The position numbers were made by a program, and so were the translations under genes. Shown piece after piece: positions 957 to 36,360 of a stretch of 36,720 nucleotides of DNA; the stretch's first letter is position 1, and each line of letters starts with the position of its first letter. The DNA lies in assembly GCF_000338295.1 (NCBI RefSeq), contig NZ_ANMO01000045.1, positions 1 to 36,720 of the forward strand, written 5' to 3'. This DNA comes from Rhodopirellula europaea 6C. GTDB lineage: Bacteria; Planctomycetota; Planctomycetia; Pirellulales; Pirellulaceae. The notes below the pieces were generated by a model. It ran no database searches, was not told the origin of the DNA, and was given only the letters and a program-made list of their open reading frames with translations.

Positions 957-1020
957 TGTAGCACGGTGGTCACCACCGTGAGATTGCGCTCGGCTGGCTG
1001 GGAGGCCCCAGCCAGCTACG
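957..1020. repeat. Twin-hairpin intergenic repeat, copy 1
   Basis: The element has two perfect hairpins pointing at each other. The left one is TGTAG, then CACGGTGG, loop TCA, CCACCGTG (957-980). The right one is CTGGCTGGG, loop AGGC, CCCAGCCAG, ending in CTACG (994-1020). It differs from the copy at 1125-1188 at one of 64 positions. It lies in the 405-bp gap between the permease start and the lipoprotein stop, so the permease promoter should also be in this gap. No coding sequence was seen there. Confidence 0.85.
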
Positions 1021-1124: not shown

Positions 1125-1188
1125 TGTAGCACGGTGGTCTCCACCGTGAGATTGCGCTCGGCTGGCTGGGAGGCCCCAGCCAGCTACG
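1125..1188. repeat. Twin-hairpin intergenic repeat, copy 2
   Basis: This is a direct repeat of 957-1020 in the same orientation, 63 of 64 positions identical; the single change (A to T) lies in the left loop. It ends 20 bases past the stop codon of the minus-strand lipoprotein gene, the position expected for a 3'-end hairpin of that transcript. The 104 bases between the two copies hold nothing I recognise. Confidence 0.85.
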
Positions 1189-9979: not shown

Positions 9980-11476
9980 ATGTTGTCTTTCAAAGGCCCG
10001 CGTGCCAAAGATCTTTGCGACCCTCATTTGGGCGAAACCCGGCGTGCGTTTTTGCGAGTCGGTGGTGCGTCGCTGTTTGGATTGTCGCTGCCACAAATCA
10101 TGCAGTTGCAATCGAACCAAGCTCAGGCTGCTGAGGCGACCGGCAAAGCGGACGCTCACCACAGCGGTGGACCGGGGTGGGGCAAGGCCAAGTCGATCAT
10201 CATGGTCTATCTTCAAGGTGGCCCGAGTCACTTGGATTTGTGGGACCCCAAGGAAAACGTTCCGGACAACGTCAAAAGCCAGTTCAAACCAATCTCGACC
10301 AAGATTCCCGGCGTCAAATTCACAGAGAATCTGCCGCGATTGTCTCAGGTGAACGACAAGTTCACGATGATTCGGTCGATGTCGTACACGCCCAACGGTT
10401 TGTTCAATCATACCGCGGCGATCTATCAAATGATGACGGGATACACGACCGACAAGGTCAGCCCATCGGGACAGCTTGAACCGCCATCGCCAAAGGACTT
10501 TCCGAACTTTGGCAGCAACATCGTCAAGATGAAGCCGCTCGACGAACCGATGTTGCCGTTCGTCATGCTGCCGCGTCCGTTGCAAGAGTCCAACGTGGTC
10601 GGCAAAGGTGGCACGGCTGGTTTTCTAGGTAAAGCGTTTGATCCATACACGCTGTATCCACCCGGCGATGACATGGACATGGACAAGCTGCAAAAGATTC
10701 GCACGGATGATCTGTCGCTTCGCGACGAGGTCTTTGATGTTCGTCTGCAGCGGCGAGCCAATCTGCGTCAGGCTTTGAACGAGCAAATGCCCGTTATCAA
10801 CGAAGCGGTTGAAAAGTTCGAGCTGGACCAAAACTACGACCGAGCACTCTCGTTGATTTTGTCCGGTCGTGCTCGCGACGCGTTCCAGTTGTCCGCCGAA
10901 GACGATGTGCTTCGCGACGCTTATGGTCGCAACTCATTCGGTCAAAGCTGCTTGCTCGCTCGTCGTCTGGTCGAGGCTGGCACGCGAGTCGTCGAAGTCA
11001 TCTGGCCCAAGGTCGCCAACAGTGACAATCATTCCTGGGACCATCACTCGGGGCTTTCCAAACGGATGAAGGATCAATCGGCTCCGATGCTGGACAACGG
11101 GTTGACGACCTTGATCGAGGATTTGGACCAACGTGGCATGTTGGAAGAGACCTTGGTCGTCGCTGTTGGCGAATTCGGGCGCAGCCCACAGCGTGGTGTC
11201 AGCACGTCGGGCAACAACAACTCCGACGACGGTCGCGATCACTGGCCCTATTGCTACACCGCCGTGGTTGCGGGTGCGGGCATGAAACGAGGTTTTGTCT
11301 ACGGAAAGAGCGACAAGACCGCATCGGCACCTGTTGATAATCCGGTGCATCCCGCCGAGCTCCTCGCAACGATCTACCACAGCTTCGGCATCGATCCTGA
11401 AACGATCGTTTACAACCACCTCAACCAACCCCGCGAGTTGGTCAAAGCACAGGCAGTGACGTCGCTGATGACTTGA
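9980..11476 (+). CDS. Tat-exported DUF1501 protein
   Basis: This 498-residue protein belongs to the DUF1501 family, whose fold is related to sulfatases and phosphatases and whose activity is undetermined. The N-terminus has a twin-arginine signal: [10 protein letters not shown] (Arg21-Arg22) followed by the hydrophobic [11 protein letters not shown], implying export of a folded protein. Family-typical segments follow: [46 protein letters not shown] and [11 protein letters not shown], and a final [18 protein letters not shown]. The Asp and His residues in these segments are candidates for metal binding. The start ATG lies 28 bases after the stop of the cytochrome/DUF1553 gene, so the two are very likely one operon, the common planctomycete arrangement. 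They probably act together outside the cytoplasm. Confidence 0.92.
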
Positions 11477-11487
11477 TCGGTTGGTAA

Positions 11488-11576
11488 CCGGAATTCGCCA
11501 GAATTCGGACGCGTCACTAGAAAGAGAACGTTAACCGTCTGCTTGCGCCACCGAATTCTTGGCGAATCCGGCTACG
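11488..11576. repeat. Head-to-head hairpin pair 12 bases after the DUF1501 gene
   Basis: The left hairpin is CCGGAATTC, loop GCCA, GAATTCGG (11488-11508); the right one, CCGAATTC, then TTGGC, GAATCCGG (11551-11571), ends in CTACG (11572-11576). The two 21-base arms are also inverted repeats of each other. The left hairpin is followed by ACGCGTCACTAGAAAG, which resembles the tail ACGAGCACTAGCAAAAC after the hairpin at 36075. The rest of the gap to 11845 contains an open frame (11578-11910) with no support as a gene. Confidence 0.75.
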
Positions 11577-11845: not shown

Positions 11846-13162
11846 GTGTCTCCATCGTTGTTTTTCGCTGCCATCTTCTGTGGAAGCTGCTTCCTTCTGT
11901 TCGTGGGTAGCGCCGACGCGATCGAAGAATGGGAATGGAAACGACTGACGCGAAAACGGCTTCCGAAACTCCGCAGCGGCAAAGCGTTTGATGCTGCTTC
12001 CGCGAGGTCGGTCGATCAGTCCGCCGCGGCGTCGAAGACCGATGTGACCAAACACCCGAACCGATGGAAAGGTTGGCGATCGGCGAGCGTGCAATCGGTC
12101 AAAGATGAATCCCCGGATTGTCGCTCTTTCGTTTTCGTTCCGACCGACGGCGAACCGTTTCCACCATTCTTGGGCGGCCAGTATTTGACCGTGCGATTGA
12201 ACGATCCTTCGACGGGCAAGAACGTTTCGCGTTGCTACAGCCTTTCGAGCGGACCCGATGAACCGCACTACCGAATCACGGTGAAACGGGTTCCGGGCGG
12301 GACGATGAGCAACTTGCTGCACGACACAATCGATGTGGGCGATCGGATCGAGATCCAAGCCCCCAAGGGCAAGTTCCATTACTCGGTGGAAGCGAGCCAA
12401 AGCCAGAGTCCGGAACCACTGAACTTGATCGCGGCGGGCATCGGGATCACGCCCATGCTTTCGATGCTGTTTCAGAGTCTGAATGAGCGGATGGACCGCG
12501 AAGTCAATTTGTTCTACCAAGTCCGAAATGCAGTCGACGCACCCTTCCTGGCACCCATTCGCGAGATTGCGAAAATGCTGGAGGCCACGACCGGCGTTCG
12601 TGTGCATCTTTGGTTCAGCAAACCTGAAGATGATGATCTACGACCTGGGGATTCGATCGGACGATTGTCAGCGGAGCAGATCGTGGATCGTCTCGGTCAT
12701 CACCGCGGCGAATATTTGATCTGCGGACCGGACGTGTTCATGAATGCGATTGCCGAGGGATTGATCGATTGTGGAGCGTCCGCGAATCACGTGATGTTCG
12801 AATCATTTGGCGTGAAGTCCAAGTCGGCGGGAGCGTTGGCGGTCCCGGCCTGCGACTCTTGTGTTGATGAGTCAGACGCCAATGAGACTGGATCAGACGA
12901 TTCGATTGGCTGTAACGTGACGTTTCAAACCAGCGAGAAGTCCGCCTCGTTTGAGGCTGGGATGGACGGACTGCTGGACGTGGCTGAATCGCTGGACGTG
13001 GATGTCGACTCAGGGTGCCGCTCGGGTGATTGTGGTGCTTGCGTCCGTCGTTTGCTCTCGGGCGAAGTGAAGTATGCCGAGCCGCCGGAATGCGACGTGG
13101 ACGAAGGCGAAGCGGTCCTGTGCGTTGCCAAGCCGGTCAGCGAAGTCGTCGTCGACGCGTGA
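11846..13162 (+). CDS. FAD/NAD(P)H oxidoreductase with C-terminal 2Fe-2S ferredoxin domain
   Basis: This 438-residue protein has the order FAD-binding barrel, NAD(P)-binding domain, plant-type ferredoxin, as in reductase components such as Hcr of the hybrid-cluster protein and related oxygenase reductases. Visible motifs: RCYSLSS (129-135) for flavin, GIGITPMLSML for nucleotide binding, and YLICGPDVFM. The ferredoxin cysteines are C391, C396, C399 and C426 (CX4CX2CX26C). It should pass electrons from NAD(P)H through FAD and the cluster to a partner that is not visible here. The start is a GTG. The first 25 residues (LFFAAIFCGSCFLLFVGSADA) are hydrophobic, a signal peptide or anchor, which is unusual for this normally cytosolic family; a downstream start without this segment cannot be excluded. 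Confidence 0.85.
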   Translation: MSPSLFFAAIFCGSCFLLFVGSADAIEEWEWKRLTRKRLPKLRSGKAFDAASARSVDQSAAASKTDVTKHPNRWKGWRSASVQSVKDESPDCRSFVFVPTDGEPFPPFLGGQYLTVRLNDPSTGKNVSRCYSLSSGPDEPHYRITVKRVPGGTMSNLLHDTIDVGDRIEIQAPKGKFHYSVEASQSQSPEPLNLIAAGIGITPMLSMLFQSLNERMDREVNLFYQVRNAVDAPFLAPIREIAKMLEATTGVRVHLWFSKPEDDDLRPGDSIGRLSAEQIVDRLGHHRGEYLICGPDVFMNAIAEGLIDCGASANHVMFESFGVKSKSAGALAVPACDSCVDESDANETGSDDSIGCNVTFQTSEKSASFEAGMDGLLDVAESLDVDVDSGCRSGDCGACVRRLLSGEVKYAEPPECDVDEGEAVLCVAKPVSEVVVDA

Positions 13163-13170
13163 TCTCATCC

Positions 13171-13301
13171 CGTAGGCCAGGTTCCACCTGGCGATGGTTG
13201 CAGGCCGGTTGAGTTTGCATCTCAATCGAACGATCGTTCGCGAGGACGCCTCGCTTGGTTCCCAAGCATCGGCGTGGTTGCCATGTGGAACATAGCCTAC
13301 G
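13171..13301. repeat. Head-to-head hairpin pair between convergent genes
   Basis: The left hairpin is CGTAG, GCCAGGT, loop TCC, ACCTGGC (13171-13192), 8 bases past the oxidoreductase stop. The right one, read on the minus strand, is CGTAG, GCTATGT, loop TCC, ACATGGC (13301-13280). Outer ends and loops agree, while the stems differ and remain paired (one G-T pair in the right stem). The spacer of about 87 bases holds nothing recognised. The position between two converging genes is suited to ending both transcripts. Confidence 0.75.
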
Positions 13302-13342
13302 GGGTGGGCGAGCATCGGCGGGGAAGAAAACGGTTTGCCGAT

Positions 13343-23995: not shown

Positions 23996-25540
23996 TCAAT
24001 TCGTCGCATGCCCGACGGCGTCATCGTAGAACTCGACCAGGTCCTTGCGGAGTTGTTTGAGCGACGGTTCGTGGATGTACATCATGTGTCCACCTTCATA
24101 ATGCTTGATCGTCAGGTTCTTACTTCGTTCCGGCGACAGCCCCATGTGATCGATGGTGTATTCCATTGCGAAGTGTGGCGTTGCCAAATCGAAGTAGCCG
24201 CAGGCGACGAACAATTTCAAGGACGGGTTGGCGGCCATCGCGCCGCGAAGGGTTTCCGATGCGTCGACGTAGCGTCCTTCAAACGGTTTGTAGCTCCACG
24301 GGTGCACATTGCCTGTGAGGATCTCGTAGACACGGCGATCCTTGTAGTTCAATTCGCGATGCATGTAGTCGTTCAGGCATGCCGTGAAGGGGCCGAAGAT
24401 CGCAGCACCGCTGGCATCGAACTCAGGAGTTTCGCCGGCAGAGTCACGATCGATGCTGGTGTAGCGACCGTCGAATCGGCCGACCGTCAAACCTTCGTCG
24501 CGAAGCAGTTCTTTGCCGAACCGTTGCATCGAAAGCTTCAAGTTGGATGACAACAGGTAGTCTTCTGAAAGGCCAGTCAAACGAGCCAGTTCCTTGGCGA
24601 CGCGTTGGCGTTCTTTCTTGCCAATGCTGGTTCCTTTTAGCAGTGCGGGAGCGTATTGCCGGTAGGCGAACTTCTCTGACTGCGCGACCACCTCGGCCAA
24701 TGGCAGCGACTGCAGTTCGTCGTCCAGTTGTTTGTGGTAGTAAGCGGTCGCGGTGTAGGTTGGCAAGAAACAAACGTCTGGGACGTCGTTGCTAGGCGAG
24801 AATCGCAGCGTTTGAAAGTTGATCGCGCCGGAGATCACGACGGCGCCATTGAGTTCCATCTTGTAGTGATCACGCAGGTAACCGCTCAGTCCAGCGACGC
24901 GGAGGCCACCGTAGCTTTCACCCAGGATCACCTTTGGTGAAAGCCAACGTTCGAAGATCGTGGTGTAGTCGTGGATGAATTGGCCAACGCTACGAACGTC
25001 TTCGTTGTAACCATGAAATTCACTCTTGTTGACGTCCTTTGCCGGACGGCTGTAGCCGGTGCTGACCGGATCAATGAAGACTAAGTCTGTGATGTCGAGC
25101 AGGCTTTGGTGATTTTCATCCAAGTGATAGGGCGGTCGCAGAAACGACGCGTCATCGGGAAACCGGATGATCTTTGGTCCGAGCATCCCAAGGTGCAACC
25201 AAACCGATGACGAACCCGGGCCGCCGTTGAAGCAGAAGGTGATCGGACGCTTGGTGACGTCGTCTGTTTTGCGTGTGTAAGAAACGAAAAAGACTTCCGC
25301 CTTGGGATCGAGATCGTCCGTTTGCATGACGAGTCGACCGGCAGTGGCGGTGTAGTCGATCGTCTCGCCGGCGACGCTGAAAGAATGCTCGGTCGAGACG
25401 AACTTGTCCGTCAGCTCATCGTTTGTCTTTTCGGCGGCAGCTTTGTCTTTCGATGCAGATGTGTCATCGGCGTTCACCTGAGTACTCAGGAAAAACAACA
25501 CCAACAAGCTCGCGAAACATTTCCAATTCATCGGGTCCAT
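23996..25540 (-). CDS. Exported serine carboxypeptidase (peptidase family S10)
   Basis: This 514-residue protein has a signal peptide (MNWKCFASLLVLFFLSTQVNA) and an S10 alpha/beta-hydrolase core. FNGGPGSSSVW (104-114) forms the oxyanion region, FIDPVSTGYS matches the family's FLDQPVGTGFS-type segment, and GESYGG holds the nucleophile Ser209. The acid is in CGYFDLATPH and the catalytic His in YEGGHMMY near the end. These enzymes remove C-terminal residues from peptides, usually at acid pH and outside the cytoplasm. An ATG three codons downstream (25531) is an equally possible start. No partner gene lies next to it. Confidence 0.92.
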   Translation of the reverse strand: MDPMNWKCFASLLVLFFLSTQVNADDTSASKDKAAAEKTNDELTDKFVSTEHSFSVAGETIDYTATAGRLVMQTDDLDPKAEVFFVSYTRKTDDVTKRPITFCFNGGPGSSSVWLHLGMLGPKIIRFPDDASFLRPPYHLDENHQSLLDITDLVFIDPVSTGYSRPAKDVNKSEFHGYNEDVRSVGQFIHDYTTIFERWLSPKVILGESYGGLRVAGLSGYLRDHYKMELNGAVVISGAINFQTLRFSPSNDVPDVCFLPTYTATAYYHKQLDDELQSLPLAEVVAQSEKFAYRQYAPALLKGTSIGKKERQRVAKELARLTGLSEDYLLSSNLKLSMQRFGKELLRDEGLTVGRFDGRYTSIDRDSAGETPEFDASGAAIFGPFTACLNDYMHRELNYKDRRVYEILTGNVHPWSYKPFEGRYVDASETLRGAMAANPSLKLFVACGYFDLATPHFAMEYTIDHMGLSPERSKNLTIKHYEGGHMMYIHEPSLKQLRKDLVEFYDDAVGHATN

Positions 25541-31819: not shown

Positions 31820-32581
31820 ATGGCTCTCTTAGTGACCTGCGACTCCGGAGGCGACCGGATCCCAGAATCACTGCGCGAGCCTTTGGCACTCGCCGGTTGG
31901 AAAGACACGTCCGCCGGCGTCGATGCGGTCGTCTCGTCACCGGCATCGCGATTGTCGCTGCCGTTGGTTGATCGAGACGCCCATTTCGCCGCTCGAATCA
32001 TTGCCGAGCACGCGGAGTGTGATTTGATAGCAAACCCGTTCCGGGCTGACTTGGTGGATGTCGGCCGGTCGGTCCACCACCGCAATCTTTTTCCGCCCGC
32101 GGTTCGGAAGCTGCCTGCGAAGGTACGCAAATCAGTTTTGTCGGAGATTCGCACACCGTACCGGGATGCGGTGCGACGCCGGGTGAGCGGCATGCTGCTG
32201 GAATTCCCCTACGTCGTTCATCTGTCCATTCGCACTTTCGCCGCTCGTTCCGTCTCGGGGCAATGGCAGCGCGGCGACGTCGGTTTGCTTTACGATCCCG
32301 GACGTGCGGACGAACTCGATTGGTGCCTGGATTTGTCCGACGAGCTGTATTTCGCGATGCCCGATCTTCGCGTCCGCCGCAACCATCCCGGCCGCGGAAC
32401 CAACGATTCGCTCACCAAAGCGATGCGAAAGCACTTTTACGACGTGCATTACCTGGGCGTGGAGGTTGTTCTCAATCGAGCCTGGGCCGCTCGCCCGGTC
32501 CGTCGTCGACGCGAGGTCCTGCGAGTCTTGGCCAACGCGATTCGAGAAGTGACGCCGGAAGCCACTCCTCAAGCCGCCTGA
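31820..32581 (+). CDS. N-formylglutamate-amidohydrolase-like protein with altered histidines
   Basis: This 253-residue protein matches the N-formylglutamate amidohydrolase (HutG-like) family along its length: LVTCDSGGDRIP, LVDVGRSVHHRNLF, HLSIRTF, GDVGLLYDPGRADE, RRNHPGRGTNDSLTKAMRKHF and YLGVEVVLNRAW. Family members normally have a His in the first block (CEHGGNRIP type) and in the third (HLSVHTF type); here these positions are Ser and Arg. I know these patterns from memory of the family, so the loss should be tested by alignment. It may be a changed or inactive enzyme. It starts 15 bases after aroA with GGGAGA upstream and is probably in the same operon. Confidence 0.8.
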   Translation: MALLVTCDSGGDRIPESLREPLALAGWKDTSAGVDAVVSSPASRLSLPLVDRDAHFAARIIAEHAECDLIANPFRADLVDVGRSVHHRNLFPPAVRKLPAKVRKSVLSEIRTPYRDAVRRRVSGMLLEFPYVVHLSIRTFAARSVSGQWQRGDVGLLYDPGRADELDWCLDLSDELYFAMPDLRVRRNHPGRGTNDSLTKAMRKHFYDVHYLGVEVVLNRAWAARPVRRRREVLRVLANAIREVTPEATPQAA

Positions 32582-32615
32582 GTCGACTATCAACCTGTCC
32601 ACAATCAACCTGCAG

Positions 32616-32686
32616 CTCGGTGGTCCCCCACCGAGACGAGCACTGAACAAAACAGGTAAATCTCGGTGGAGGACCACCGAGCTACG
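32616..32686. repeat. Head-to-head hairpin pair with CGAGCACT tail
   Basis: Left hairpin: CTCGGTGG, loop TCCC, CCACCGAG (32616-32635), followed by ACGAGCACTGAACAAAAC. Right hairpin: CTCGGTGG, loop AGGA, CCACCGAG (32662-32681), then CTACG. It starts 34 bases past the stop of the amidohydrolase-like gene. Compared with the elements at 957 and 1125 the stem has T-A where they have A-T, a paired change. Confidence 0.8.
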
Positions 32687-36074: not shown

Positions 36075-36360
36075 CGTAGGTTGGGCTTCCAAGCCCGACG
36101 AGCACTAGCAAAACAACCAGTCTTCACGCTCCGCGAAGGAAGCCGTGCAGTCTTACTTTACCCTCCCCTTGGGAGGGTCGAGCGAGGCGAGGGGAGGGTT
36201 CAGCACTGAATCCAGTCCGTAACCCTCCCGAGCCCGAAGCGGACCGACCCTCCCAAAGGGAGTGTGGAGCAAAACGGCGCGACCTCGAAGCGGGGCGAGG
36301 GGAGGCAGGGCAATTTGAATGAATGCGGTTGCTTCGTCGGGCTTGCAAGCCCAGCGTATC
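36075..36360. repeat. Two inward-facing hairpins flanking a G/C-rich palindrome block
   Basis: Left: CGTAG, G, TTGGGCTT, loop CC, AAGCCCGA (36075-36098), then CGAGCACTAGCAAAAC. Right, read on the minus strand: GATACGCT, GGGCTTG, CAAGCCC, then GACGAAGC (36360-36331). Between them is a block of other palindromes, including ACCCTCCC, loop CTT, GGGAGGGT (36160-36178) and CTCCC-AAA-GGGAG (36250-36260). The gap 35940-36459 has no other gene seen. Confidence 0.7.

Follow-up and report, generated by a model that had tools for sequence, protein, structure and literature searches.

GTAG-type REP hairpins of several families in a contig of Rhodopirellula europaea 6C, and RAYT transposase genes linked to most of their stem types in the genus

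Background

The GTAG superfamily of REP elements was defined by Di Nocera et al. (2013, PMC3733652). In the sections of that article drawn on here, its members have an unpaired GTAG, a stem of 5-13 bp and a short loop, the stems form complementary sub-families, heterodimers and G.T pairs occur, and the elements are mostly intergenic. Planctomycetes are among the host phyla, and R. baltica is said there to host different REP families and many tyrosine transposases with flanking repeats. The predominance of heterodimers, in the words of the same source, "has no obvious explanation". Co-evolution of REPs with their transposases (RAYTs), and a general correlation between the two, were described by Nunvar et al. 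(2010, PMC2817692, the parts concerning REP and RAYT). Bertels and Rainey (2011, PMC3116915) described REPINs, with compensatory changes in their hairpins according to the portion cited here. For the TnpAREP/REP systems of E. coli and S. maltophilia, the relevant sections of Corneloup et al. (2021, PMC8266576) give a model in which the GTAG and hairpin of single-stranded DNA are recognised by a HUH/Y1 enzyme specific to the family.

We analysed a stretch of 36,720 nucleotides (the window), which is contig C45 of the 7.19 Mb genome of R. europaea 6C, assembled in 273 contigs. Genomes of the genus are given by our own numbers, with G000 for this genome. The hairpins of the window belong to the GTAG REP superfamily. 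They resemble it, as far as the cited sections of PMC3733652 describe it, in the foot, the lengths of stem and loop, the complementary stem variants, the head-to-head hetero- and homodimers and the flanking of RAYT genes. Since GTAG REPs, their heterodimers, their G.T pairs and R. baltica as a host had already been published, the window hairpins are further members of described elements, and the original prediction erred in supposing the design to be without a named family. Some of the window families may be those listed for R. baltica, the comparison being one of description.

As in REPINs and their RAYTs (PMC3116915, PMC2817692, in the parts cited), inverted REPs are paired as a unit, RAYTs are flanked by cognate REPs and the two co-evolve. 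GTAG plus hairpin is common to the systems of PMC8266576, whose group 3 REPs, as described in the sections cited, resemble the near-perfect short stems found here. The comparison with those systems is, on our side, one of sequence. We are highly confident in explaining the hairpins as GTAG-type REPs of several families, mostly arranged head to head, each of which would be read and moved by its own HUH/Y1 RAYT. What had been a guess from raw sequence is settled in that the compensated hairpins prove to be REPs to which transposase genes are linked, and the phylum is remote from the gamma-proteobacteria that usually serve as models.

Hairpins of the window

The original prediction placed hairpins at 957, 1125, 11488, 13171, 32616 and 36075, and every one of these places does carry them, ten clear hairpins and one degenerate. 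In all of them the design is an unpaired foot, directly followed by a stem of 7-9 bp with a loop of 2-5 nt. The foot is GTAG in 9 of the 11 copies, the exceptions being GCAG at 32612 and GTAA at 11484. It had been taken for an outer CGTAG or a close variant, but the preceding base varies and the pattern CGTAG..CTACG has no match in the window; the conserved unit is GTAG plus stem. A search of the window against Rfam returned no match.

At the left end of the window, a REP of the CTCGGTGG family (958..980, plus strand; GTAG and CACGGTGG/CCACCGTG, loop tca) stands head to head with a REP of a 9-bp gcc(t) type (994..1019, minus strand; GTAG and CTGGCTGGG/CCCAGCCAG, loop gcct). A second copy of this pair, 1126/1187, lies 168 bp further along and consists of GTAG with CACGGTGG and loop tct (1126..1148, plus) and its partner, GTAG with CTGGCTGGG and loop gcct (1162..1187, minus). 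The pair expected at 11488 is sound on its right side, where GTAG is followed by CCGGATTC/GAATTCGG with loop gccaa and a G.T wobble (11551..11575, minus). Its left partner (11484..11508, plus) is degenerate, with the foot GTAA and a bulged stem, CCGGAATTC..GAATTCGG, as judged by eye.

The unit at 13171..13303 is a complete REPIN with its spacer. GTAG and GCCAGGT/ACCTGGC, loop tcc (13172..13192, plus), stand head to head with GTAG and GCTATGT/ACATGGC, loop tcc, with one T.G wobble (13280..13300, minus). The next pair has the degenerate foot GCAG and CTCGGTGG/CCACCGAG, loop tccc (32612..32635, plus), opposite GTAG and CTCGGTGG/CCACCGAG, loop tcct (32662..32685, minus). A lone REP completes the set, GTAG and GTTGGGCTT/AAGCCCGAC with loop cc and a T.G wobble (36076..36099, plus). 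The head-to-head standing that had been called usual is indeed so, with five pairs in the window (958/1019, 1126/1187, 11484/11575, 13172/13300 and 32612/32685). It is also the commonest arrangement of neighbouring GTAG hairpins scoring at least 6 in the window and a sample of the genome: 14 head to head, 6 tail to tail and 2 head to tail.

One may ask whether such hairpins are simply chance palindromes picked out by eye. An excess over shuffled sequence had been set as a test of the prediction, and we scored hairpins with wobble pairs at 0, mismatches at -3 and a threshold of at least 7. On this score the window has 9 GTAG hairpins, where 200 dinucleotide shuffles gave 0.1 on average and never more than 2. 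In a sample of 60 stretches of the genome (1,194,030 bases) there are 50, where 20 shuffles gave 2.5 on average and at most 8. As a hairpin foot, in 20 of the 60 sampled stretches, GTAG ranks second among the 256 tetranucleotides behind AAAA, with 13.4 hairpins per thousand occurrences against 17.6 for AAAA and a median of 2.0. The only doubtful case is a hairpin at 24911, one of the nine scored, which has one mismatch and one wobble and is itself probably due to chance. Given these controls, together with those by reversed patterns below, we regard chance as a practically negligible explanation of the set as a whole.

Stem types, copy numbers and compensation

The window hairpins had been seen as copies of one modular family. 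They are in fact several REP families mixed, with at least four stem types that go with different RAYTs. Pattern matches in the own genome number 108 for the GCCAGGT type (reversed control 1), 39 for CCGGATTC, 26 for CTCGGTGG, 4 for CTxGCTGGG and 2 for GTTGGGCTT; many dispersed copies per genome are therefore clear for three of the five stem types, and the other two are rare. The CTCGGTGG type has 48 matches in G004. The GCCAGGT pattern has between 67 and 171 matches in each of the six genomes that have it (171 in G004, 87 in G002); reversed, as a control, it has 0 to 2 in a genome. The inverted pair with its spacer is repeated as a unit, and among the matches listed, full-length copies of about 13171-13303 are present in at least six genomes (G000, G002, G004, G005, G009 and G011).

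Changes in the stems are mostly compensated. A pattern for the CTCGGTGG family, GTAGCNCGGNGGN{3,4}CCNCCGNG, in which pairing is left free at the N positions of two stem pairs, was searched in 13 genomes of the genus and matches 143 places, spread over 6 of them; its reversed control matches none in all 13 (one double-foot hairpin enters the count of 143 on both strands). Pair 2 is Watson-Crick in 141 of 143 (T-A 81, A-T 60; the rest T-C 1 and T-T 1), and pair 6 in 139 of 143 (T-A 102, C-G 37; the rest T.G 2 and C-A 2). For the GCCAGGT pattern, the 95 matches of G005 alone are Watson-Crick in 91 and 93 at the two free pairs. Many of the copies behind all these counts are tandem or inherited and hence are not independent events. 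The claim that stems vary while staying paired is accordingly upheld, except that two stem types keep a wobble. The G.T pair of CCGGATTC/GAATTCGG is the usual form of its family among the matches listed, and GTTGGGCTT keeps its T.G pair in 12 of 12 matches as pair 2 alternates between T-A and C-G.

Stems with exactly one non-Watson-Crick pair, in the window and the sample, have G.T or T.G in 20 cases, A.C or C.A in 7 and others in 19, a small count in which five copies come from one family. More G.T than A.C is to be expected if the GTAG strand folds.

Concerning the inner tail, which had been noticed in several copies, the long form starting with GACGAGCACTAG occurs only once in the window. 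A shorter tail, NCGAGC, is present in some families, following 6 of 11 distinct CTCGGTGG copies, 4 of 4 CTxGCTGGG, 3 of 7 CCGACTGAG and 1 of 6 GTTGGGCTT. One tail common to all families was considered and rejected.

Linkage of stem types to transposase genes

The model for REP-associated tyrosine transposases, NF047646, was searched in 40 genomes including the own one; it has matches in 34 and exceeds its cut-off in 19. It found the own-genome RAYTs on contigs C11 and C113, both of which were missed by the Pfam Y1_Tnp model. Flanks were read for 78 RAYT-like ORFs from 13 genomes of the genus, picked by a profile made from 14 RAYTs of these loci, and these 78 are a subset, as NF047646 counts 168 matches in the same 13 genomes. 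At least one GTAG hairpin lies within 500 bp in 29 of the 78, at least two in 26, and hairpins stand on both sides in 22. In random 1.7-kb windows of the own genome, the corresponding control, one hairpin occurs in 4.0% and two in 1.2%. The remaining 49 of the 78 have no GTAG hairpin within 500 bp.

Four of the five stem types of the window (GCCAGGT, CTCGGTGG, GTTGGGCTT and CCGGATTC) flank a RAYT somewhere in the genus. In the own genome, REPs with GCCAGGT and GCCATGT stems, which make up the family seen at 13172/13300, lie around the RAYT L083 on contig C11; this RAYT matches PDB 4er8, "TnpArep" (E 2.8e-40), and scores 171.7 bits against NF047646, where the cut-off is 80. REPs of the AACAGTTG type, absent from the window, flank a RAYT in the own genome as well. 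The partners of the other types are found in other genomes of the genus. CTCGGTGG/CACGGCGG REPs flank L159 (contig C29 of G011) on both sides and L131 (G005) on one, GTTGGGCTT flanks L098 (G004) and L114 (G002), and CCGGATTC flanks L126 (G004) and L116 (G002). The fifth type, CTGGCTGGG, was seen beside no RAYT in the flanks read. What is found there is the related CCGACTGAG/CTGACCGAG type with gcct loop, beside L102, L124 and L130, which has its stem length, its loop and the NCGAGC tail in common with CTGGCTGGG.

Stem type follows RAYT relationship. For the 32 RAYTs that have two hairpins or more (26 from the genus and 6 from outside), protein identity and stem edit distance are correlated at -0.65, and none of 5000 permutations was as low. 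A stem edit distance of at most 1 was found for 28 of 28 RAYT pairs with at least 60% identity, most of which are orthologues in related species and so not independent, and for 1 of 433 pairs below 45%.

The RAYTs themselves, judged by their sequence, have the HUH motif, a tyrosine and similarity to TnpAREP. Residues H153, H155, R202, Y213 and N217 (L159 numbering) are the same in all 16 RAYTs that were aligned, H153 and H155 forming the HUH motif, and we infer the identity of the catalytic tyrosine. L083 alone is over the cut-off in an NCBIfam scan of eight RAYTs, a further difference from the systems of PMC8266576 as described in the cited sections. L159 (E 1e-13 against the RAYT model), L131, L098, L124 and L126, which were scanned for the other four stem types, are below it, and for L159 there is no match in PDB by sequence.

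The anatomy of the hairpins and their linkage to RAYTs together fit the published RAYT model, and the linkage gives good support to the suggestion of a REP-type Y1 transposase that reads the structure, as RAYTs are flanked by the same hairpins, in one case in the own genome. Following that literature, the RAYT of a family would recognise the single-stranded hairpin with its GTAG foot, cleave, and then copy or move the REP pair (REPIN or BIME), the source being probably single-stranded DNA during replication. Active movement of this kind, with its choice of strand, would bring REP pairs into intergenic DNA near gene ends, where copies may later decay by mutation, by loss of the foot or by deletion between repeated arms.

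Unlike the general correlation of Nunvar et al. (PMC2817692, in the part cited), some genomes rich in copies have no detectable cognate RAYT. The search for a close homologue of the CTCGGTGG-family RAYT was negative both in the own genome (273 contigs), where the best has 46%, and in the single-contig G004, where it has 42%. Among the NF047646 matches listed, no L083-like RAYT is present in G004 or G002; the only one of G002 to exceed the cut-off, L091, bears no relation to L083 in the blastp matches listed. For genomes with many copies and no close RAYT, the simplest account would be that the RAYT was lost after its REPs had spread. We considered the C113 RAYT as the partner of CTCGGTGG, whose REPs its contig carries, and rejected it, for it has no GTAG hairpin adjoining and is closest to L129 and L096.

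Several other loci were observed in passing. L009 (G000, C181:1-2711) is an IS200-type transposase between two GTAG hairpins of the same orientation, with stem CTCGGGG and 6-nt loops, and also has opposite TTAG hairpins of that stem; the element is IS200-like, with terminal hairpins that resemble REPs. L014 (C266) and L015 (C30), both in G000, are divergent Y1 proteins without GTAG hairpin, adjoined by other repeated palindromes, by eye of GTTAGCGGCAGGGCGC type and AACCCGCCGCGT type. The RAYT clade of L012 (C269:1-2279 in G000), common in the genus (L128, L145, L156, L134, L135, L139), has no GTAG hairpin near; upstream of L012 itself there is a GTTG-CCACGGGC hairpin. In G011, L086 (C14) is a GCCAGGT-clade RAYT in two overlapping ORFs amid eight GTAG hairpins, apparently decayed.

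Orthologous sites in the genus

The same sites differ between species. At 32616, G000 carries the head-to-head pair. In G004 the right REP has a GCAG foot, and the left REP has GTCG as a degenerate foot and another stem, TCGCTGG/CCAGCGA, paired at 7 of 8 positions and followed by a tail nearly as in G000; this left REP may belong, in decayed form, to the CTCGCTGGG type. G005 has a single hairpin with GTAG and CTAC on its two sides, a "double foot", as a deletion between two direct CCACCGAG arms would leave; such a form could arise through central deletion according to section 12 of PMC6006769, the part cited here. No GTAG hairpin is present at this site in G002 and G011, which have a short sequence only, or in G009, which has other sequence.

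At 13172, GCCATGT stands on both sides in G005, and G004 and G009 have GCCAGGT pairs with the inner tails swapped, that is, the unit inverted. The pair in G002, CGGAACTC/CGAAAGTC, is of another family, and its stems are close to those beside the RAYTs L117 and L118, also in G002. There is no pair in G011. The REP at 36076 is in the same place in G004 and has diverged in G005 and G009.

It could be argued that the REPs are old and no longer transpose, that they owe their spread only to recombination, slippage and vertical descent, and that the structure is kept for a role in the host such as binding of gyrase or IHF-type proteins. The tandem copy at 958/1126 would suit this view, as would families that persist where a cognate RAYT was not found, and the REP at 36076, whose position is shared by G004 and, in diverged form, by G005 and G009. 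Against it, the stem type tracks the RAYT clade, and the 13172 site holds other families and other orientations in other species. In our opinion this makes the passive explanation unlikely, and we prefer REPs moved by their own RAYTs.

A more radical idea is that REPs are re-written in place, a RAYT swapping the stem of a resident REP in one step instead of by slow paired mutation. One-step replacement would explain the compensated changes between copies. The idea comes from the left REP of G004 at 32616, whose stem differs and whose tail is kept, and from the families and orientations that differ by species at 13172. We give it little credence, somewhat less than passive descent, but site-by-site replacement is the part of this work that may merit the attention of specialists. 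The genus, with several RAYT/REP pairs in one genome, families without a detectable RAYT, and sites that are empty, deleted, inverted or differently occupied, lends itself well, as a natural experiment, to the questions of how stems are recognised by RAYTs and why heterodimers predominate.

Position relative to genes

Gene context was taken from the ORFs of the window. The REP at 11484 starts 7 bp past the stop of the ORF 9980-11476, that at 13172 starts 9 bp past the stop of 11846-13162, and that at 32612 starts 30 bp past the stop of 31820-32581. A parB-like ORF stops 136 bp before the REP at 36076, and a separate hairpin that has a T run lies between the two. The ORFs 5' of these four sites (7-136 bp) have Pfam matches, the one before 32612 just below the cut-off, and those around 958-1187 have none.

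Such closeness to stop codons at three sites (7 to 30 bp) invites the explanation that the hairpins are selected as RNA, as intrinsic transcription terminators or stabilisers of mRNA 3' ends. In stems with a single non-Watson-Crick pair, G.T is also commoner on the GTAG strand than A.C (20 vs 7), as would suit a folded strand, be it RNA or single-stranded DNA. An intrinsic terminator is a hairpin followed by a T run, and the GTAG hairpins are not of this form: a run of at least 5 T in 8 nt follows the stem on the GTAG strand in 1 of 59, and lies beyond the foot on the other strand in 1 of 59. Furthermore, the distinct hairpin with a T run that precedes the 36076 REP is conserved, and a terminator would explain neither the GTAG, nor the linkage to RAYTs, nor the inverted copies. 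Termination is thus unlikely to be the main role of the hairpins, and we consider selection as RNA a very improbable explanation of them, as compared with REPs read by RAYTs. Adjoining the 36076 REP, at 36139-36286, there is also an imperfect inverted repeat with 42-nt arms (CCCTCCC..GGGAGGGTCG type), which does not have the GTAG design.
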